This document shows, piece after piece, positions 14,345 through 63,535 of a stretch of 64,000 nt of DNA; position 1 is the stretch's first letter; each line of letters begins with the position of its first letter. The notes beneath the pieces are model-generated. The model was given only the letters and a program-made list of their open reading frames with translations, made no database searches and was not told the DNA's origin. The stretch spans positions 14,646,931-14,710,930 of the forward strand of contig CAIIXF020000003.1 of assembly GCA_903813345.2 (NCBI GenBank), read 5' to 3'. The stretch is from Owenia fusiformis. Taxonomy: Eukaryota > Annelida > Polychaeta > Sabellida > Oweniidae. The position numbers were made by a program, and so were the translations under genes.

Positions 14345-14515
14345 AATGCCATGGGGGTCACATTTGAAATTGGAAATACAACAAATAAGAGAGGAATCAG
14401 CAAGGAATAAAGTAAACAGACATGTAGTTAACACTCCAGATTATGTGGAAATGCAAGAAAATCAATCATTTCATTCAAATTTTAAAGAGAAATGTCAACA
14501 AATAAGTGTGACCGG
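14345..14515 (+). repeat. Family A, full-length copy
   Basis: Starts GGGGGTCACATTTGAAAT and runs through AGCAAGGAATAAAGTAAACA, GACATGTAGTTAACACTC and CATTCAAATTTTAAAGAG. The right end is mutated (AAGTGTGACCGG). The copy is open over 85 codons in the frame shared with several other copies. Confidence 0.82.
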
Positions 14516-15283
14516 AATGAATTTTGAGGTGAGGATGTCTAAGCAAAATGGCAGTTGTATTCAAATGAACAAAATGTGAACTTTGATGAGTTTTGGGCAC
14601 ATGTGTCTCGTACAAAAATATATTAATCACTACATTTTGTGTTCAACAATACAAGATGTTTTCTAACCTATTTTATTTCATTCTAAATCAAAAGAGTGAC
14701 AATTAAATCGGGATGGATCATTCTGATTTTTCAGATCCCCTCTTTACCTAATGACGTTTGATCTCCGAGGGATAGGAAAGGCTGTAGATCCCACAATGGG
14801 GAATGATGGTTTGACATGACCTGGTTCAGTACAAACCCCTTTTAGAAATGGAAATGTTGAAAAAATTCCAGGGCTTCATTCATGCCTTTGCTTATCCAGA
14901 TGCTAAATCATCATAAACAGAATCACTGCTAGATTATGGTATCTTAATTTTTTAAATTATGAAAGGTGATAAGGTCTGATGCTTGTCATGATCCCTTATA
15001 GTCTCTCTGATTGCGTAATATGGTCGACAGAATTTACAGTTATAACCACGACCCGATCAGTTGAATGTTTAGCATGGATGGTGAACCTCATATTGAATTT
15101 ATAGCAGACAGACATCAGAAACTACAGTGAATTATTAAACACTTGTACAAATAATATTAAATAATATCATATTTTTTATCCTCAGGCGTCATTAATATCA
15201 GTATATGTTGTCATATACCAGAGATATTACCCACAATATAATGGTGGTGTTGTTATGAATATGTTTTTTATTTGTAATTTATG
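14516..15283. other. No recognised feature
   Basis: Gene-free sequence up to the left target duplication of the foldback element. Confidence 0.5.
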
Positions 15284-15292
15284 ACTCTATAT
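15284..15292. repeat. Target site duplication, left copy
   Basis: ACTCTATAT, repeated exactly at 17809-17817 on the far side of the foldback element. Confidence 0.75.
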
Positions 15293-17808
15293 TAGGGTGG
15301 TCCAAAATATGGCGAAAAACCAACTTTCTTTCGGATCATCTTCCTCATTTGACTTACTGTTGTCCATGACCTAAAACACCTGCACACCAAATTTTGAGAC
15401 CCAAATCCCATGGGAAATTTACCCACGCATCGACTGAAAAATTCGGTTATTTCATGATTTTTTGCTATTTTCGATAAATTGCCATCTCCTTTTTCCTGGT
15501 ATAAAATGTTTCTATTTTTTCATAATAAACATTTTTGTAGGACTCTTTATTACTTAACAATACTAGGAGCCCAAACACCAAATTTTGAGACCCAAATCCC
15601 ATGTGAAATTTACCCATGCTTTGACTGAAAAATTGTGATTTTCACAGTTTTGTCCGATTTTCAATAGATTACTGTCTCCATTTTCCTGGTATAATATGTT
15701 TCTATTTTTTCATAATAAATATTTTTGGATGACTCTTTATTACTTCATAATACTAGGAACCCATACACCAAATTTTGAGACCCAAATCCCATGGAAAATT
15801 TACCCATGGTTTGACTGAAAAATTGTGATTTTCACATTTTTTCCGATTTTCAATAAATTGCTGTCTCCATTTTCCTGGTACGATATGTTTTTATAATTTT
15901 TGAGGACTCTTTATTACTTCATAATACTAAAACCCATACACCAAATATCCACCAAATTTTGAGACCCAGATCCAATGAGAACATTACCCATGCTTTGACT
16001 GAAAACTGGTGCTTATGATAGCTTATGATGTCTGTTTTAGGGGCATAATATGTTAATAAACATTATGGTTATTCCTTCTTAATCCAAAGAAACACCTAAA
16101 TATCAAGACTTTAAGTCTTATTGAAAGGCGACAAATTCAGTAGTTTGGGGAAAATTTATGATCTTTTACTTGTACATTTATATACTGTGGTTAATATTAA
16201 GAAGTGATGACTCGACAGCAACTTAAATGCCTTCAAGATTTGGTTTGTTGGTTTCAGTAGGGATACATCACAGGACTTTGTTTGGATTTGTGTGAGATGT
16301 CATATTCTTTCTCACATCTTTGCAGGGTAAGGTCAAATATCAAATCTGATTTTCTTTGGAGAAATGATTTTTGATTGATCATTGTATCAATGGCATGGTC
16401 TCTGTTGTAACCAGTAAGCCTGTACCAAATCTTCAAGGGATTCGAGCTTCCACTGAGCTTTAAGTCATTTCTCTGAAAATGTTCATGCCCTGAAAGTACA
16501 CAATGTAGAAGATAGGAAGAGCAATGAGAAACACTTAAGGTAATTCTGTATGTTCAGAAATTTTAAGTGGAGTCCAATGTTATTTCTGGAACTCATTCCA
16601 TACTTGGTCAGCTCTTTCAATTTTACACTGAGTTCAAATATGTATTTAGATTATTAGTTGATGGTTAGTAATTTTCTATAATGTACTATGTGCTATGTTT
16701 ATACACTGTTTGTGCATCTGAATGGAATGAGTAACACGGGGCTCCAATTAGGAAGCCATTAAAACTGAAAATAAGGAATTACCTTAAAGTACTATATAAC
16801 CATCTTTCACGATGTAACGTATGTAAGGCCAAACAGGATAATTAAGACAACGTGTAATACAATTTATTACAAATTGCACATCACACAACAATGATATGGT
16901 GCTCTAAACAACAAAAATCAAAAGTATTATGATCAAAGCAAACGTGAATTTCCCATGGGGTTCAGGTCTAAACATTTGGTACATATTAAATGTATGGGTT
17001 CCTAGTATTAAGAACGTATTAATGTCCTCCTAAAATGTTTAAAAACTAAATATAAGATTAATGTTAATCTATTGAAAATAGGAGAAAATTCGCAGAAAAT
17101 CACAAATTTTTGATTGAAGCATGAATTAATTTCTCATGGGGCCAGGATCTCAAAATTTGGTGCATATTTGGGGTATGGGTTCCTCGTATTATGAAGTAAT
17201 AAAGAGTCCTCCAAAAATATTTCTTATAAAAAATAGAAACATATAATACCAGGAAAATAGAGATGTATTGTACCCAATTTTTCAGTCGAAGCGTGGGTAA
17301 ATTTCCCATGGGATTTGGGTCTCAAAATTTGATGTATGGGTTCCTAAGTATTATAAAGTAATAAAGAGTCATCCAAAAATATTTATTATGAAAAGACATC
17401 TACCATTTTATACCAGGAAAATGGAGATGGCAATTTATCGAAAATAGCAAAAAATCATGAAATAACCGAATTTTTCAGTCGAAGCGTGGGTAAATTTCCC
17501 ATGGGATTTGGGTCTCAACATTAGGTATATGGGTTCCTAGTATTATGAAGTAATAAAGAGTCCTACAAAAATGTTTATTATGAAAAAATAGAAACATATT
17601 ATACCAGGAAAAGGGAGATGACAATTTATCGAAAATAGCAAAAGATCATGAAATAACCGAATTTTCAGTCGAAGCGTGGGTAAATTTCCCATGTGATTTG
17701 GGTCTTAAAATTTGGTGTGCAGGTGTTTTAGGTCATGGACAACAGTAAGTCAAATGAGGAAGATGATCTGAAACAAAGTTGGTTTTTCGCCATATTTTGG
17801 ACCACCCT
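15293..17808. mobile_element. 2.5-kb foldback transposon with tandemly repeated arms
   Basis: Both ends carry AGGGTGGTCCAAAATATGG as a perfect inverted repeat, and the inversion continues for about 700-850 bp. Each arm is built of about 190-bp direct units. In the left arm ACCAAATTTTGAGACCCA recurs from 15385, 15576, 15766 and 15950; in the right arm the inverted motif recurs near 16965, 17148, 17320, 17512 and 17703, so the arms have different unit numbers. A 9-bp duplication ACTCTATAT flanks the element. No transposase is visible, so it is non-autonomous. Long inverted repeats with inner tandem units and a 9-bp duplication fit Foldback or Mutator-like (MULE) elements; which one is inference. 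Confidence 0.85.
16535..16787. mobile_element. TTAA-flanked MITE nested inside the foldback element
   Basis: TTAA at 16535-16538 is followed by GGTAATTCTGTATGTTCAG. The right end, read in reverse, is TTAA then GGTAATTCCTTATTTTCAG, with TTAA at 16784-16787. The inverted similarity continues for about 70 bp, including ACTCATTCCAT. TTAA duplication is the hallmark of piggyBac-type transposition, so this is a candidate piggyBac-derived MITE. Confidence 0.72.
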
Positions 17809-17817
17809 ACTCTATAT
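17809..17817. repeat. Target site duplication, right copy
   Basis: ACTCTATAT directly after the terminal ACCACCCT; identical to 15284-15292. Confidence 0.75.
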
Positions 17818-21318: not shown

Positions 21319-21702
21319 CATTTTAGAACATGACAATTGTGCCATTTTAGAACATGACCATTGTGCCATTTTAGAACATGACCATTGTGCCATTTTAGAA
21401 CATGACCATTGTGCCATTTTAGAACATGACCATTGTGCCATTTTAGAACATGACCATTGTGCCATTTTAGAACATGACCATTGTGCCATTTTAGAACATG
21501 ACCATTGTGCCATTTGAGAACATGACCATTGTGCCATTTTAGAACATGACCATTGTGCCATTTTAGAACATGACCATTGTGCCATTTTAGAACATGACCA
21601 TTGTGCCATTTTAGAACATGACCATTGTGCCATTTTAGAACATGACCATTGTGCCATTTTAGAACATGACCATTGTGCCATTTTAGAACATGACCATTAT
21701 GA
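21319..21702. repeat. 24-bp minisatellite, 16 units
   Basis: Sixteen units containing TTTTAGAACATGACCATTGT, almost identical. The period is a multiple of three, so both strands stay open (up to 140 codons on the minus strand, repeating MAQWSCSK). These frames are by-products of the array. Confidence 0.95.
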
Positions 21703-25690: not shown

Positions 25691-26279
25691 GAAGAGAGAG
25701 AATGCGAAGAAAGGGGAACTAAGCCAACAAATATGACTTGACAAGGTCGTTATAACATATTGTTTGCAAAGTATCCAACAAGTATATCCTGACCCCATAA
25801 ATTCTTATGACATGTATGCACTGCCTTATGTCAGTATGAAAGAAAGTATTTAATAATTCATGAAAGTATGATGGTTTTAAAGAATTATGGGTTTTAATGG
25901 GTGTACGTGTAAGTTGGCACGCAGCATGAATATTATGTGTCGTAACTGCCAAGAAATAAACATTAATAAAACCTTTCTACATCTGAGCAAAACGATAAAT
26001 TACATGGCAGATATAGAATGAATTAATATGAAATTGAAATGATAATAAGTCTAAAAAAATAAGTTCAAGGTTTTGTCAGTGTCGTAGTATATGAATGTTG
26101 TTTTTGTAATTCATGTGTATTTTGAAAATTCACATTTTTTCTGCCTATTTAATCACAATTTGAAAAAAAGTTTCTTTTCAGATGCTGTTACTATTTTATG
26201 CTTCTTCAGCTTCTTAATCAAAAAAAAGAAATATATGACAAATCAAAAGAAACACATAATAATGAGTTGTCCTTTATGT

Positions 26280-26289
26280 ATACTTGCAG
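26280..26289 (+). promoter_or_regulatory. 3' splice acceptor of the teashirt exon
   Basis: TTGTCCTTTATGTATACTTGCAG gives a pyrimidine-rich tract and CAG directly before GTCTTGAAGACGG. The open frame runs through this point back to 26091, but that upstream stretch is hydrophobic and of low complexity, unlike a Tsh N-terminus, and is read as intron. Confidence 0.7.
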
Positions 26290-29200
26290 GTCTTGAAGAC
26301 GGCAGTGAAGGAAAAGATGACAATATCGTCAATACTGACAACCCCGATGCAATGTCAGATGGCTCCGGGAGTAGCTCAGAGGCATCCTCCAGTGACGAAG
26401 ACACAAATATAGATGATGCAGAAGAAATCCTAAAGAGCCCAGAATCTGATCACACTAGTTTAGCATCAATTGGTGATGAGAGCAGTCTCGAAGTGAATAA
26501 AACATCAGGACTGAATAATAATATAGAGGAGAAAAGCATGGTTGATGAATCAAAAATGGACGTTAAATCTCCCAGTGCTTTATCCGATTCAAAGGACAAT
26601 GACATCACTCAAAATGAGGATACAGAGTCTAAATCAAAAATAGAGAATACAAAGGAGAATGTTCCACATGATGCCATGGATGATGAAAATGAACAATTGG
26701 AAAAGACATTGAAAAGGAAATCTAACTCACCGCCCGAGTTTAATAGAGATGACAATGCATCTCCTCGTAGTCCCAGAATGCACGTAGACAAAAAGGACAT
26801 GGGGTCACCTTCAGCCCCCACTCTTCCTCTCCCTGATTCTGAGTCGTACCTAGCCGTTCTATCAAAATTTGCCAAATACTCAAACTTTTTACCAAATGAA
26901 AAAGAATCTAGTCCCTCTAAAAATCTAAAAGATCTCCACAGTAAATATATCGATGATTATACCCCAATTGATGAAGACCAACCCTTGGATTTATCAAAAC
27001 CAAAGTCCAACAGTGACATTCCAACAAAGAAAATAGTCCCAAATCACAGTAAACCAACCACCAATACTGGATCCTCTCTTGCTACCCTCGAGAAAAAGTT
27101 TGGGGGTAATTTTGAGATTGAAGGTTTGACTCCAAGGGCGTCACGATATGGATCTGATCCATCAAGGAGGTATTATGATCTCTCATCAACAAATCTGCCA
27201 TCGTATGACTTCTCTAAACAGTTCCTAACAGCCATGTCATACCAACCACGTAAGCCTAGTAATCATAGCAACCACACCTCCACTCCTGTGCCCCCCAGTA
27301 AAATTGTCCCCCATAGCAAGGTGACCCCCTATAAGAATGGATTGGACCATAAAACAAGCCATCACCTTGCTTCGAGCCAGATAGATGAGAAAATGTTGCA
27401 GAAATCCTTCAAGCCAAAATTGCCGTCAACTACTGGACCCCATAATCACAATGGGAAACCCAATATGCGGGACATTGATATGGAGAAACGTCCCGGAGAC
27501 CCTGCTAAATATACAGACTTTATATGTAGTTGTATGAAAAAGTTTCATTCTTTATATGGACTTACAATGCACATGCAGGACACAGGGCACGCCCCCAGTT
27601 CTTCTAAAAACACCGCATATCTCGAATACCCGAAACTTGTGCGTGGACAGGATATGTGGTTAAATCATGGATCTGAACAAACTCGGCAAATTCTACGCTG
27701 TATGAAATGTGGTGAATCGTTCAAATCTCTCCCAGAATTAACAGTTCATATGATGCAGACAGGGCACTATGCGAATATTGTTAGCACGGAAGGGAAAAAA
27801 GTGCATAAATGCTCGACGTATTGCGAACGCTGCGAAGACAGTGAATGTGTATTCAAATGTAAAGTCTGTCAGGAGGTATATAGTGATATGGAGGGATTGG
27901 CAAACCATATGGTCATATCAGGACACCATAAAAAACAGGTACTGAAATCGAACAGTGTTAACATTTCAGAACAGACATTGAAATCCAAACATATATCAAC
28001 GTTGTCAAAAATTGATCTGTTGAAATCGGAGACAATGTCCAAATTTGAGGCAATGTCGTCTCGTTATGACCCATTACTCAGGCGTTCATCAAGTTCCAGG
28101 GCTGAGTTGCCCCGAAGGTCAACGACGCCCCCTTCCTTGGATAGTATTCCTCCACGCAAGTACAACCCAGAGGATAGAAAACCCTACCCCCATAAGTATG
28201 CTGAAGACAGGAGGGCATCATATCCGAGAAATCACGAAGAGCGATCACGAAATGAACCAATGAGATTGTCACAATCCCCAGGTAATGAAGGACGGTATGA
28301 ACGAGAAAGAGAGTCCCCTCCCAGAGTGTCATCATCACGGGGTCAAGAATTGATTGCCGACCGCCGATCTCGACACTCAGTGGATGATATAAAGCGTGAA
28401 AAGTTAATCGGGGAACCCCAGGTTCTGTATAATAACGATAAAGAGGACTCTACACTCTCATCTCTATTGAAATACAAAAAACTTTTGGTGAAAGAGGAGA
28501 GAGAGCGGCTAGAAAATTCAGCTGAAAAAGACCCAGATAATTCTGAAAAGGATGACGATATCAAAGTCACATGTGAAAGTTGTGGTGATAAAATTGATAC
28601 TTCAGTATTTGTAGAGCATGTACGCCTATGTGTTAAAACTAAATCGAAAGTGATTGATGCTCTCCGGGCCCGTTTGAAATCCATAGAAAGTAACTGTACC
28701 AGTCCAACGGGGAGTTCAGCTAATGACACAATTAAATCTCCGTGCTCAACACCTGAGCTAGCCTCTGATTCTAAAGCCTCAATTGAATCTCATTCGGAGA
28801 ATAATCGTAAGCGTTCGGCATCGGAGTATGACAGTCGTAGCACCCCGTCTCCATTACTGGACCATAAGAAAACCATGAATAAGAAATTCAAATACCTCAC
28901 CCCAAATGAGAAAGATCGAACGTCGCCTAAATCCTCCAAGGGGCCTTCAGCTCTAGCTGCAATGGAGAGTTTTATCGAGAAAAGCTTTATGGAACCCCCA
29001 AAGAAAATGGGGAAATATTATGTGGACCCTAGTGAGAAGTACCGCAATGCCTTTAGTATGTTTCCCCTCGGGTCGCTGTACCCCCGGGATAAAGATATGG
29101 ACATTCCACGCCATAGCAACCGTGGTAGCGTCATATACAAAGAGGAACGAGGTACAGTTCAAGCTATGAAACCAAAGATTCACATCAAATCGGAACATAG

Positions 29201-29927
29201 CGAGAGAAGCATGTCCTCTATGAATGGTATCGAAGATGGCGACAAACCCCTCAATCTTGCAGATGGTGTGAAACATGAGAATGATACAAGTAATGACTCT
29301 GACAATTCAAAAATTGAAAAACTCGAGGATAAATACCTACGAGATGATGATGATTTTAAATCCTCGAAGGCAGAAGATCAAAAAGAGAAATATTTGAATT
29401 CACCGGGAAGTGGGTCTAATGGCGATGGCTCAGCTTTGGAATCACTAAAGGGACTTGTATATGGACAACACCTAAATACAGAGCACCCCCTAGATAGTCT
29501 ACAAAGGTTGATCACTCACCCAGATCAGCTTAAATCTGGGGGAGTTCACCCTGGGGATCAAGCCGTCATGCTCATGAATCCCAGCATGCTTCATTCCCCA
29601 CACTCCAATACGAGTCACGATGGAAAATCTCCGTCACCACTTGACGATGATAGAGGACCTCCAGAGTCCCCATCTGGTGAGAAAAATCAATCTGATAGTG
29701 ATTCAGACACACATGGTGATTTTCGATGTCAGGCATGTAGTCGTCAGTTTGCGTCAAAGGGATCATATAGGTACCATTTAAGCCGTTGTCACCTGACTAG
29801 TGTGAAAAAATATGGGATCAAAGAGGCGTTCAATATGAGCCCATACATCTATCTCCCATTGGACCATAATGCTAAATTCTCCAAGTATTATAAGATGGCA
29901 AAGGAGTTAACCAGTAAAGCTAAATAA
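26290..29927 (+). CDS. tsh: Teashirt/Tiptop-family zinc-finger transcription factor, large 3' coding exon
   Basis: Encodes at least 1211 residues; the 5' coding exon is not in view. Numbering counts from an ATG at 26091 that probably lies in intron. The N-terminal part is Asp/Glu/Ser-rich. PLDLS (residues 298-302, 26982-26996) is a CtBP-binding type motif, and a PLNLA variant lies at 29247-29261. Three spaced fingers follow: C479/C481/H494/H500 (only one residue between the cysteines), C537/C540/H553/H559 (HMMQTGHY) and C590/C593/H606/H612. A C2HC finger is at C828/C831/H843/C847 and a C-terminal C2H2 finger at C1213/C1216/H1229/H1234. The spaced H-x5-H fingers plus PLDLS identify the Teashirt family, nuclear DNA-binding repressors that act with Hox and Wnt patterning in studied animals. 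No homeodomain, unlike vertebrate TSHZ. Arg/Ser-rich linkers separate the fingers. It is longer than the roughly 950-1080 residues of fly and vertebrate members. Confidence 0.88.
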
Positions 29928-30579: not shown

Positions 30580-30760
30580 TGTCGCGATGGTCATGTTTTG
30601 AAATGCAAAATTAAGCATTTAAGAGTGGAATCAGCAAGGAATAAAGTTAACAGACTTGTAGTTTACACTCTAAATTGTATAGAAATGACAGAAAATCAGA
30701 CACTTTATTCAAATTATGGAGAGAAATGCAAGGAATAAACATGAGCAGACAGACATTTGA
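30580..30760 (+). repeat. Family A, full-length copy
   Basis: GTCGCGATGGTCATGTTTTG, AAATGCAAAATTAAG, AGCAAGGAATAAAGTTAACA, CACTCTAAATTGTATAGAAA, GAAAATCAGACACTTTATTC and AACATGAGCAGACAGAC. One of the best-preserved copies, about 650 bp downstream of the teashirt stop. Confidence 0.85.
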
Positions 30761-35606: not shown

Positions 35607-36936
35607 GACTCCTAATGTAGGCTTTGACCCTCGGGTAACACTTGCTAAGTCCGATGTAGGCTTTGACCCTCGTGGTAACACTTGTTACGTCCAATGTAGG
35701 CTTTGACCCGCGTGGTAACACTTGCTAAGTCCAATGTAGGCTTTGACCCTCGTGGTAACACTTGCTAAGTCCAATGTAGGCTTTGACCCTCGTGGTAACA
35801 CTTGCTAAGTCCAATGTAGGATTTGACCCTCGTGGTAACACTTGCTAAGTCCAATGTAGGCTTTGACCCTCGTGGTAACACTTGCTTAGTCCAATGTAGG
35901 ATTTGACCCTCGTGGTAACACTTGCTAAGTCCAATGTAGGCTTTGACCCTCGTGGTAACACTTGCTTAGTCCAATGTAGGCTTTGACCCTCGTGGTAACA
36001 CTTGCTAAGCCCAATGTAGACTTTGACCCTCGGGGTAACACTTGCTTAGTCCAATGTAGGCGTTGACCCTCGTGGTAACACTTGCTAAGTCCAATGTAGG
36101 CTTTGACCCTCGTGGTAACACTTGCTAAGTCCAATGTAGGCTTTGACCATCGGGGTAAAACTTGCTAAGTCCAATGTAGGCTTTGACCCTCGTGGTAACA
36201 CTTGCTAAGTCCAATGTAGGCTTTGGCCCTCGTGGTAACACTTGCTTAGTCCAATGTAGGCTTTGACCCTCGTGGTAACACTTGCTAAGTCCAATGTAGG
36301 CTTTGGCCCTCGTGGTAACACTTGCTAAGTCCAGTGTAGGCTTTGACCATCGGGAGACACTTGATATATGCAGTGTAGTCTTTGACCCTCGTGGTAACAC
36401 TTGCTAAGTCCAATGTAGGCTTTGACCCTCGTGGTAACACTTGCTAAGTCCAATGTAGGCTTTGACCATCGGGGTAAAACTTGCTAAGTCCAATGTAGGC
36501 TTTGACCCTCGTGGTAACACTTGGTAAGTCCAATGTAGGCTTTGGCCCTCGTGGTAACACTTGCTAAGTCCAATGTAGGCTTTGACCCTCGTGGTAACAC
36601 TTGCTAAGTCCAATGTAGGCTTTGGCCCTCGTGGTAACACTTGCTAAGTCCAGTGTAGTCTTTGACCCTCGGGGTGACACTTGCTAAGTCCAATGTAGGC
36701 TTTGACCCATGGGGTAGTTCTTGCTAAGTCCAGTGTAGGGTTTGACCCTCGGGGTGACACTTATTAAGTCCATTGTAACCGTTGACCCTCGGGTGACACA
36801 TGCTAAGTCCATTGTAACCCTTGACCCTCGGGATGACACTTGCTTAGTCCAGTGTAAGCTTCGATCCTCGGTGCAACACTAAGTTCAGTGTACGTTTTGA
36901 CCCTCGGGGGTAACATTGTGACTTTATTAGTCCAGT
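35607..36936. repeat. 40-bp satellite array, ~33 units
   Basis: Each unit contains GGCTTTGACCCTCGTGGTAA followed by CACTTGCTAAGTCCAATGTA. Central units are nearly identical; both ends degrade, the right end most (GTAACC and GGGTGACAC variants). Diagnostic variants (ACCATCGGGGTAAAAC, TTGGCCCTC, CCAGTGTAG) recur together at 36141-36343 and 36460-36655, an offset of about 319 bp, so part of the array has an eight-unit higher-order period. Open frames of 69-91 codons arise because three units span 120 bp and return to the same frame. Confidence 0.97.
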
Positions 36937-46882: not shown

Positions 46883-47928
46883 CAGGGTGATCAATAAATA
46901 AGGTAAAAGTATCTGGCATTTCTTCAAATTTTACCCAATCCTCATAAAATTTGCACAGAATAATGTTCAAACATTATTGAATTGATATATCAAGTTACAG
47001 ATCAAAGTGATGTGATTGGTTGAAGTTATAGTTGCCATAGCAACAGAAATCATGAAGACCCGGGGCAACTTTCAAAAAACTAAATTTTCAGTCGAAACAC
47101 TTTTAATAATATATTTCAAATCACAATTAAAATGTCATATCATATTCTTATTTCATACTTCATAACTGCTACTTAATGTCCTTTGTTTTTAACATATAGT
47201 ACATGTCTTCTACTCCAGTCTTTGTTTTAAACCCATTTTCCCATAGCCTGCAAATTTTCAAGACAACTGGCTTCAAGTCATCCCATGAAAAACTCTCTCA
47301 ACTTTCTCTTCAGCTCACCATGACGGTAAAATAATAAAGGGACAAGTCAGGAGAGTATAGTACATGACCTAACAGTGGGAAATCCAGTGTTTTAATGGTT
47401 TGTACCTTGAGAATAGCATTGTGAGACGGAGCATTATCCCAGTGCAATATGAAATATTTTGCAGGCCTCTTAGTCTTAGCTTCTTCCTCTTTTCTCTCAT
47501 CAAATCTCTTCTGTGGGTATTGTTTTTCATCATTGACCTGTGTCATAGACTTGCTATGGTCACATCAGTTTTCATTATATATTAATCTTTTCCATGACAT
47601 CAAACATCAAATTTGCAAGAAAATATGTAACAATGTAAACAAAGTATTGAAACAATTAATGCTGGCACCCACGTTTATTTCTTTTCAGTTTGAAAAAGAT
47701 GTGCTTTTTATAATTTTTTGTTCAAATTGGACGCAATGAAATTGCCCCGGGTACCCCCGACTCTAGTTACCATAGTAACTATAATATTAACCAATCAGAT
47801 GGCAGAAGTTATATATTTATATGTTTCAATTTAGAAATGTACAAGGTATATTCTGACCAGATTTCAGGATGTTTGGACCAATATTTACAAAATGCCAGGT
47901 ACTTTTACCTTATTTATTGATCACCCTG
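46883..47928 (-). mobile_element. Mariner-family transposon remnant
   Basis: The left end reads CAGGGTGATCAATAAATAAG and the right end is its exact reverse complement, with TA at 46881-46882 and 47929-47930 as target duplication. Inverted similarity extends, imperfectly, for about 190 bp per side (for example ATTGGTTGAAGTTATAGTTG, and CCCGGGGCAA in both arms). The element is 1046 bp, shorter than the roughly 1.3 kb of intact mariners, and carries a decayed transposase on the minus strand. It sits inside a 31-bp minisatellite. Confidence 0.9.
47310..47546 (-). pseudogene. Mariner transposase catalytic-domain fragment
   Basis: An open frame of 78 codons contains HWDNAPSHNA and YSPDLSLYYF. These match the catalytic core of mariner DD34D transposases: the second aspartate in WDN, and the SPDL segment that normally precedes a third aspartate 34 residues after the second. 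Counting 34 residues from the WDN aspartate puts a tyrosine at that third position, so the active site is broken. The N-terminal DNA-binding domain and first aspartate are not found in frame, and a stop follows soon after YYF. In intact mariners this enzyme binds the terminal inverted repeats and moves the element by cut and paste into TA sites. This copy must be inactive. Confidence 0.9.
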
Positions 47929-57539: not shown

Positions 57540-57865
57540 CTACTCATATTCTCTCCCTTGAGGAAATAGTTCCGTAATGACATTATCTACGTCGATATCG
57601 GACGTCCCCTGAACGATATTGTGAACGATCATTGGATTCTGGCCGCCAGTTCTTGAAGCATCACGCTGAATGTTCATACTCTCAACCATATCAGAATGAT
57701 GAACACGTTTTATATGCGTCTTAAGATTGCCTTTCTGCGTAAACCGGCTTTCGCAGTATGTGCATTGATAGTCCTTCTGGCCTGTATGATTTCGCATGTG
57801 GATCATTAAGGCATTCTTTTGGTTGAAGCGTTTTGCGCACACTTTACATTGGAATGGTCGCTCAC
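57540..57865 (-). CDS. C2H2 zinc-finger protein, last coding exon (fingers 3 and 4)
   Basis: On the minus strand the acceptor TTTTTTCAG precedes GTGAGCGACC. The first two bases complete a glycine codon whose first base ends the previous exon, restoring a standard HTGERPF inter-finger linker. Finger 3 is FQCKVC...HMRNH and finger 4 is YQCTYC...HIKRVH, joined by a TGQKDY linker. A 54-residue acidic tail without a known domain ends at a stop at 57540. Fingers of this type bind DNA in the major groove, so a nuclear DNA-binding protein is expected. The upstream in-frame ATG (57884) lies in intron and is not a real start. Orthologue not identified. Confidence 0.88.
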
Positions 57866-58013
57866 CTGAAAAAATATTTTTCATTTTTATATTTTCTTTT
57901 TTAGGTTCAATGTTTTTATTTGGAAAATAAATTATAATTCTTTTACATGATTGTGGAGCTCCGATGTTATTAGCATTATTTGCCCCCTTTTAGATTTTCT
58001 TATTTTTCCTAAT

Positions 58014-58265: not shown

Positions 58266-58759
58266 TAAATAGTATTGTGTGCATGTGTGTACGAATATGT
58301 AGCTTATTGTATGTACACCTTATCAACCATTGTAATAAAAATGTTTGAACATTTTATAATATGAAAAGGAAGAAGATAATTTTAAGCTCCACTTAAACAT
58401 GTGCCATGCAAAATTTAATCACATTAACAACTTAAATACAGTATTTGAGTTGAGTTCCTTTTATAACGTCATTATGTATGGCATTCACAAAGTCTCCAAA
58501 AGCAATTTTCTAATCATTATTTCTGTCATTCCATTCATTTGATATTTCTGTAACAGCAAGAACATTGTAATAAGTCAAAGACAAACAAAAACATACAAAT
58601 ACAATAATTCATCACAATGCTTAACAAAGTAAATATGAATACAATTGTAAAAGAATAAGAAGATTAATGTTATATACAGTACATTGAACCTATTATAAAG
58701 ATATTTCTGGTTAGACTATGACCATATGGACTTTCATATCAGACCAGGTTCTCTCTGGA

Positions 58760-59182
58760 AAGTACAATAACGCCATAGTACAATGATTCCAAAGTACAAT
58801 AACTCCATAGTACAATGATTCCAAAGTACAATAACTCCATAGCACAATGATTCCAAAGTACAATAACTCCATAGTACAATGATTCCAAAATACAATAACT
58901 CCATAGCACAATGATTCCAAAGTACAATAACTTCATAGTACAATGATTCCAAAGTACAATAACTCCATAGCACAATGATTCCAAAGTACAATAGCTTCAT
59001 AGTGCAATGATTCCAAAGTACAATAACCCCATAGTACAATGATTCCAAAGTACAATAATTTCATAGTGCAATGATTCCAAAGTACAATAACTCCACAGTA
59101 CAATGATTCCAAAGTACAATAACGCCATAGTACAATGATTGCATAGTGCACATGACTCCATAGTGCAATGATTCCAAAGTAC
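58760..59182. repeat. 32-bp intronic minisatellite, ~13 units
   Basis: Units contain ATGATTCCAAAGTACAATAA and CTCCATAGTACA, with an inner AGTACAAT sub-repeat. Long minus-strand open frames (up to 104 codons of LYFGIIVLWSYC type) come from the array: three units (96 bp) return to the same frame. Confidence 0.95.
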
Positions 59183-59489
59183 ATAGTAGGATATGAGTTC
59201 TGTGTTTTTCAAAAAATACCTTTGTCAATTCAAATCCAAAGAAAATCCTGAAAACTACAAGTTAGGCCTATGACAGTCAAGTTATTTGGGTCATATGAAC
59301 ATTAAATCCAATTTTTCCTTTATTGTGTTGTTTGATCTCGCTATGAACTTCCATGGGGCATTTTTTTGATCTCCCCTGTAATATCCCTGATCTCTCCCAT
59401 GATTTCACTTACAACATCCTATATGATATCTTGTATAATCTCCCATACATACAATGATCTTGCATGATCCGCAGTGTCTGATTACTTAC

Positions 59490-62400: not shown

Positions 62401-63049
62401 ACATCGCCAAAAGGAAGGACTCTGCATAACAGAATAATGTACCAACAGAAAGGAATTTTTGTTTTACTTTGTATGGAACAAGTTTGAAGAAAATGGTGCA
62501 GTATGAGACTCACAATCCTTGATTTTCAATTGTCTGGTTGGCCTGAAATTCAAATTAACGTTCTTTGTGTATAGCTGGACCCTGTTTATACATGTTGCTG
62601 GCAATTTTGTCACTCCCAATAGATCTGATTCTGCCTTTAACTGTATGGATCTTTTGAGAATAGCTCCTGACATAAGAAATTTTCCAAACTTAAAATATAG
62701 CGATTGGCATCTGGGTGCAAAACTGTGAATTAATTTTCAGCTCAGTGCAAGGTAATTTTTGAATGTCTAAGATTAAACACATTTTGTTCCACCTATTGGA
62801 ACGAGAAAGTACTAAATTTCATTACATCTGCCTGTCTAAATCTAGTGATATATGGATATTGATATGCTCTATTACGATGATTTAACAAAAGCTTGGTATT
62901 ACATTAAGCCTTTATATTGATGAATGAGATATGAGTTGCAATTGAAAAGTCTGCCATATAATAAAACAGTGAGAATCAACAATCTAGAAATCTCTAGTCC
63001 CCATGAAATCGTCTTGCAGGTTTTTTAAAATAAACTTGCAAAAGTTTCT
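62401..63049. other. No recognised feature
   Basis: No gene or repeat recognised before the 24-bp array. Confidence 0.45.
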
Positions 63050-63535
63050 TCAAGTACTGTAGACTTGCATAGGTTTCTTTCAATAGATTTGCATAGGATT
63101 CTTCAAATAGACTTGCAAAAGTTTCTTCAAATAGACTTACAAACGTTTCTTCAAATAGACTTGCAACCGTTTCTTCAAATAGACTTGCATAGATTTTTTC
63201 AAATAGACTTGCAAAAGTTTCTTCAAATACTAGATTTGCAAAAGTTTCTTCAAATAGACTTGCATAGGTTTCTTCAAATAGACTTGCAAAAGTTTCTTCA
63301 AATAGACTTACAAACGTTTCTTCAAATAGACTTGCAACCGTTTCTTCAAATAGACTTGCATAGATTTTTTCAAATAGACTTGCAAAAGTTTCTTCAAATA
63401 GACTTGCAAAAGTTTCTTCAAATAGACTTGCAAAAGTTTCTTCAAATAGACTTGCAAAAGTTTCTTCAAATAGACTTGCAAAAGTTTTTTCAAATAGACT
63501 TGCAAAAGTTTCTTCAAATAGATTTGCAAAGGCAT
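63050..63535. repeat. 24-bp minisatellite, ~20 units
   Basis: Units of AGACTTGCAAAAGTTTCTTC plus AAAT. Within the array a block of about six units (variants ACGTTT, ACCGTTT, ATAGATTTTT) is duplicated at about 63118-63215 and 63298-63390, so a higher-order copy event has happened. Both strands are open throughout (199 codons minus with SLFEETFA octapeptides, 171 codons plus), and both frames begin at TTG, not ATG. Confidence 0.95.

Follow-up and report, generated by a model that had tools for sequence, protein, structure and literature searches.

A foldback-type element with mirrored ~190-bp units in the annelid Owenia fusiformis, possibly moved by a hAT transposase

What kind of element carries tandem units in two mirrored arms, and which enzyme could have moved it? 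This question is raised by a 2.5-kb element in a 64,000-nucleotide stretch of the O. fusiformis genome (assembly GCA_903813345.2, contig CAIIXF020000003.1, positions 14,646,931 to 14,710,930 of the forward strand), which we call the window and whose own numbering is used below. On the best and most likely reading, the element belongs to the cut-and-paste DNA transposons, is non-autonomous and has a foldback build. We are highly confident that the element is a foldback-type DNA transposon; that a hAT transposase moved it is a reading to which we give slightly better than even chances. The original prediction had also proposed a foldback transposon; this part stands, supported by the target duplication, whereas the 9-bp length of that duplication and the unequal number of units fail, as detailed below.

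Borders, arms and tandem units

The element is 2,517 bp long and occupies positions 15293..17809, or 15285-17817 including the duplications. Its inverted arms terminate in the end sequences TAGGGTGGTCC...GGACCACCCTA, and the outer ends are perfectly inverted over 35 bp, in agreement with the perfect outer inverted repeats that had been predicted for a 2.5-kb element. This perfect run includes TAGGGTGGTCCAAAATATGGC, which forms both termini in inverted orientation. When the window was scanned for this terminal 21-mer with up to three mismatches, the two ends were the only sites, compared with a mean of 0.01 expected from 100 shuffles, and the same scan found no second copy of the element in the 64 kb.

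The 8-bp direct repeat CTCTATAT lies flush with the symmetric ends TAGGG.../...CCCTA on both sides (left copy, 15285..15292; right copy, 17810..17817; both + strand). Among 200,000 random 8-mer pairs drawn from the window, 0.008% (a fraction of 0.00008) were identical, and a window scan placed CTCTATAT on the + strand at the two flanking sites only and its reverse complement at 26521 and 48824. The target-site duplication expected of a foldback-type element is present, as seen in this one copy. The duplication had been taken to be 9 bp long; the symmetric ends instead give 8 bp, and under the longer reading a T at the element's left end has no partner. The ninth base (A, 15284) matches only because the element's own right end finishes in A.

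Both arms start with a 92-bp end domain and continue in ~190-bp tandem units, with opposite orientation between the arms. In the left end domain (15293..15384, + strand), the first 35 bp recur in perfect inversion at the opposite end, arm identity reaching 98% over the first 100 bp, and the right end domain (17718..17809, - strand) is delimited by the inverted ends and the arm alignment. The arms include complementary stretches of 153 nt at 95% and of 197 nt at 93%. From tip to centre, their identity per 100 bp runs 98, 94, 92, 85, 92, 86, 85 and 68%, an uneven slope, and the majority of the alignment gaps fall into the inner half. When folded in silico as single-stranded DNA, the element is predicted to pair mainly arm to arm, with 641 of the first 800 bases paired to the last 900 and an energy of -686, compared with a mean of -224 (standard deviation 7) for eight mononucleotide shuffles. 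The structure is that of a foldback element, with long inverted arms able to pair and mirrored tandem direct repeats inside both.

To delimit the units, a profile was built from the six outer ones, which share 80-93% pairwise identity, and searched over the window. It gave nine matches with E values of 4.6e-07 or less, all within the two arms and in the expected orientation, six of them strong by construction, as the same units had built the model. On the left (+ strand), matches start at 15385, 15576, 15766 and 15950, corresponding to L1 (15385..15575), L2 (15576..15765), L3 with an internal deletion (15766..15949) and the decayed L4 (15950..16098; profile match 15950-16092, E 3.6e-17). On the right (- strand), they start at 17717, 17526, 17334, 17162 and 16980, corresponding to R1 (17528..17717), R2 (17335..17527), R3 with an internal deletion (17163..17334), the decayed R4 (16982..17162; E 6.5e-17) and the partial R5 (16913..16981; profile match 16980-16914, E 4.6e-07). 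L1, L2, L3 and R1 are supported by unit comparison and the profile, and R2, R3 and again L3 by the profile and the informative columns described below. Arm complementarity as well as tandem repeat and profile searches thus uphold the predicted direct units of opposite orientation in both arms. Their number, which had been thought unequal, is nearly the same: the profile finds four on the left and four plus a 67-bp partial fifth, about a third of a unit, on the right, the inner units being decayed.

Further candidates did not stand out from noise. Six additional profile matches (E 0.46 to 9.8) lay elsewhere in the window (three) or in the element on the unexpected strand (three). A fifth left unit is not claimed: the stretch 16031-16300 scored 30.5 against the unit, the best of 200 shuffles scoring 30.0, and the larger stretch 16025-16536 was equalled by 9 of 200 shuffles. 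A search for a unit in the inner right stretch 16790-16904 remained at chance level (143/200 shuffles), and the inner left and inner right segments, compared directly, were no more alike than chance (250/300 and 161/300 shuffles). The middle segment (16099..16912) contains no profile-found unit and, by Pfam, no recognised protein.

Within this segment, a stretch at 16535-16787 is bounded by TTAAGGTAATTC and by the exact reverse complement of it, with outer edges 253 bp apart. The pair could, as a weak candidate, represent a small nested TTAA-duplicating element, Kolobok- or piggyBac-like; if one mismatch is tolerated, 18 of 100 window shuffles also reach two or more matches to TTAAGGTAATTC.

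Forty-nine open stretches of at least 30 amino acids touch the element, and none contains a recognised protein, bearing out the view that it encodes nothing visible. Outside the element, the Pfam scan covered 13 selected open stretches out of the 1,119 of at least 30 amino acids in the whole window, so that an autonomous relic may lie elsewhere in it. Rfam, at its gathering threshold, and ARAGORN gave no matches in the window.

Relatives were also sought in other sequence collections. A 19-base end pattern matched once in viral_contigs (L001) and once in genome_contigs (L002). Neither a BLAST search with the element nor a repeat search (L001 2800-4300, L002 6000-8000) revealed an inverted copy of the end or a unit, and direct reading of L001 3000-4000 and L002 6700-7100 likewise found neither. 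Both matches are therefore attributed to chance. L001 also matches part of the end domain separately over 16 bases (E 0.024), with no element end alongside. A 27-base unit pattern was absent from viral_contigs, and the element had no match among phages and plasmids at E 1e-5.

The outer units retain traces of their relationships at 15 informative columns. L1 and R1 agree at 14 of these, and L2 and L3 at 13. R2 is of the L1/R1 type at all ten informative columns from 42 to 99 and agrees with L2 at columns 145, 153 and 155, the state at 155 being exclusive to these two units. Because its tip-side columns follow L1/R1 and columns 145, 153 and 155 follow L2, R2 is a mosaic of two unit types. In addition, a similar short extra stretch, CAAATAT, stands at the end of both L3 and R3.

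Proposed mechanism and choice of transposase

Since no transposase is recognised in the element, its mobility would depend on one supplied from elsewhere. Such an enzyme, produced from another genomic site, would recognise the 92-bp end domains and possibly additional sites inside the units. Insertion across an 8-bp staggered cut, followed by gap filling, would have left CTCTATAT at either side. The arms may have grown as a ~190-bp stretch next to the ends, on their inner side, was duplicated in tandem. Exchange or gene conversion, acting between the arms as well as along them, would keep the outer units alike, with the inner ones left to decay. To judge from this one copy, the units may once have been positional partners across the arms, the tip-side half of R2 being overwritten later by the R1/L1 type, conceivably through unequal exchange or gene conversion. 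By analogy, the units may also multiply transposase binding sites: the transposases of Hermes and other hAT elements bind repeated short subterminal sites, in Hermes via BED domains (PMC10368747, in part), and the excerpted account of Tetris reports that Galileo repeats carry extra transposase sites and suggests a similar scenario for Tetris (PMC4079207). Taken as a whole, the picture of a hAT foldback element in a non-insect animal, with satellite-like 190-bp units in both arms that are kept alike from the tips inward by exchange, is a tentative one that we consider rather doubtful in all its parts together.

Several observations weigh against the reading as a hAT-moved foldback element. Only one copy is in view, and its single 8-bp duplication is compatible with hAT, P and Mutator alike and cannot separate them. 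No hAT, P or Mutator transposase domain was detected in any of the 49 open stretches by Pfam at E values up to 10, the five weak matches (AGS_C, E 0.0047; PaRep2a, 0.014; COPI_assoc, 0.03; MmeI_hel, 0.073; GspD N0, 0.19) all lying below the cut-offs and none being a transposase. The proposed positional pairing of units is weakened by whole-unit identity, in which L1/R1 form the only reciprocal best pair between the arms among the six outer units; L2 and L3 are reciprocal best within one arm, and the units most similar to R2 and R3 are L1 and R1, respectively. Moreover, the states that R2 shares with L2 at columns 145 and 153 are common to L3 and R3 too. The units show no supported conserved core (0.825 in the first 57 columns, 0.804 in the rest; 1,429 of 5,000 permutations gave a difference at least as large), and the search for a stretch common to end domain and unit stayed at chance level, with 73 and 112 of 500 shuffles reaching the scores of the two strands. 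With both tests negative, a repeated binding site is not supported.

Which transposase could have acted is suggested by the ends and the target site. The hAT terminal motif is (C/T)AGNG, and the TAGGG present at both ends agrees with it, as in maize Ac. CTCTATAT fits nTnnnnAn, the site preference reported for the hAT element Hermes along with 8-bp duplications (PMC10368747, in part); this is a weak criterion, because 10.9% of the window 8-mers share the fit. Together, end and site modestly favour hAT, to go by the sequence. Within the literature searched, no paper brings together foldback elements, the hAT superfamily and terminal inverted repeats (TIRs) in that wording. Against hAT stands, as the main rival, a foldback element moved by a transposase of a Mutator-like element (MULE), an explanation that is unlikely but has real weight. 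MULEs typically have TIRs longer than 100 bp and duplications of 8-10 bp, as the excerpted text has it (PMC5225508), and the present element has both; its long arms point towards Mutator (PMC5225508, PMC4079207; both in part), the superfamily that the authors of Tetris suggest for their element (PMC4079207). The TAGGG end and the nTnnnnAn-fitting site, however, favour hAT, albeit weakly, and Pfam recognised no MULE transposase in the element's 49 open stretches.

The remaining alternatives fare less well. A foldback element moved by a P-superfamily transposase, in the manner of Galileo, strikes us as improbable. GGTGGTCC also lies inside the P-element end as we assume it to read, but at a different distance from the end. 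P elements make 8-bp duplications, and Galileo combines foldback-like TIRs with tandem ~140-bp repeats in one Drosophila willistoni copy, according to the excerpted report (PMC4168063). The same source gives ANAGT...ACTNT as a tendency of the target motifs of P and 1360 (PMC4168063). In the register that we derive from the 14-bp palindrome of that source, which has the duplication at its centre, TGACTCTATATATG matches three of the eight fixed bases, about two being expected, and the P target motif is thus not found, as judged by eye for this one site. It could also be that no transposon is involved, and that a short satellite array underwent inverted segmental duplication or the structure is a fold-back artefact of the assembly or of a read. 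In line with this, no second copy was seen and the window is rich in tandem arrays (37 rows). Neither process would be expected to produce a flush 8-bp duplication with symmetric perfect ends, and divergence between the arms, at 2-32% per 100 bp, is not what a single-read fold-back artefact would show. We consider such an origin highly unlikely. Least probable of all is a Helentron-type element (HINE, Pearl-like) with a satellite-like array, as known from bivalves. In these, the array is central, between two modules, whereas the present element has one array per arm in opposite orientation. We also know of no target duplication in Helentron or Pearl-like elements, and this element has one.

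Surroundings of the element

The window has a G+C content of about 33% over most of its length and contains 37 rows of tandem arrays. These include arrays at 35614-36870 (period 40, 31.5 copies), 21319-21698 (period 24, 15.8 copies), 58759-59183 (period 32, 13.2 copies) and 63020-63530 (period 24, 21 copies). A dispersed ~165-bp repeat on both strands, dense for a 64-kb window, is a candidate short interspersed element (SINE) or miniature inverted-repeat transposable element (MITE), with sites at 30592-30757, 14362-14523, 3318-3153 (-), 46647-46488 (-) and 51334-51169 (-), among others. An iterated profile gave 33 matches at E 1e-3, of which 18 fell below 1e-20; the iteration inflates the weak ones. 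The 24-bp array at 21319 overlaps one-end profile matches of this repeat and may thus derive from it.

About 8 kb downstream of the foldback element lies an open frame of 1,279 amino acids (26088-29927, + strand) that matches a PDB chain of Teashirt homolog 3 (2dmi, E 5.8e-12) and is, by this match, a predicted Teashirt-type zinc-finger gene, so placed that the element is upstream of it. The match by itself points to an animal host. A further open frame (57540-57989, - strand) contains C2H2 zinc fingers (Pfam zf-H2C2_2, E 1.4e-14) and probably represents one exon of another zinc-finger gene. The open stretch at 47313-47564 (- strand) contains HWDNAPSH and YSPDL, presumably resembling mariner/Tc1 transposases; Pfam gave no match at E 1, and we treat the stretch as a weak lead.

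Comparison with known systems

Elements of this construction are known from flies, and the one described here is probably a further example. Foldback elements of this build had been considered rare outside flies, plants and a few other groups. This somewhat overstates the case: Tetris has nearly the same plan, and beyond Drosophila, foldback elements are reported from rye, Arabidopsis, sea urchin and Chironomus in the available part of the same source (PMC4079207). The plan itself is ordinary; the transposase superfamily is possibly unusual for it.

Judged by its described plan, Tetris of D. virilis and D. americana is the closest in build. In the excerpted description, it too is non-autonomous, has an end domain and ~220-bp tandem units in each TIR, and surrounds a middle domain without apparent coding capacity (PMC4079207). 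Its duplications measure 8-9 bp in three complete copies and 9-10 bp in four rearranged ones, and the units within complete elements are on average 87% alike, compared with the 80-93% pairwise identity found here. Tetris differs in the length of its units (~220 versus ~190 bp) and of its end domain (up to 866 versus 92 bp), and 37 bp are common to its end domain and unit, whereas no such shared stretch was found here (PMC4079207, in part). The likeness concerns the described plan only. Tetris is assigned to Mutator by its authors (PMC4079207), and the present element is more likely hAT.

Other systems share individual features, as far as the excerpted accounts extend. Copy 112 of Galileo (P superfamily) in D. 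willistoni carries tandem repeats in both of its foldback-like TIRs and has no transposase-coding segment; Galileo differs in its mostly 7-bp duplications, a preferred palindromic site, and ~140-bp repeats that lie about 1.7 kb from the ends in clearly unequal number between the arms (PMC4168063). Muta1 of Aedes aegypti, a type 2 foldback element, likewise has tandem repeats in its inverted ends and duplications of 8 or 9 bp, but its repeats measure 12 bp, its TIRs 145 bp, and it encodes its own transposase (PMC5225508). Hermes shares the duplication length and the site preference noted above and differs in its 17-bp imperfect TIRs and dissimilar ends; the available portion of the source mentions no long tandem units (PMC10368747).

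Galileo and DAIBAM copies underlie chromosome inversions, and Tetris units have seeded satellite arrays, according to the excerpted source (PMC4079207). A single copy alone settles little. As a further example with a trace of unit exchange, however, the O. fusiformis element raises the question of whether this build has evolved recurrently across transposase families: should it indeed be a hAT foldback in a non-insect animal, the plan seen in Tetris and Galileo would have arisen independently in a further transposase lineage.
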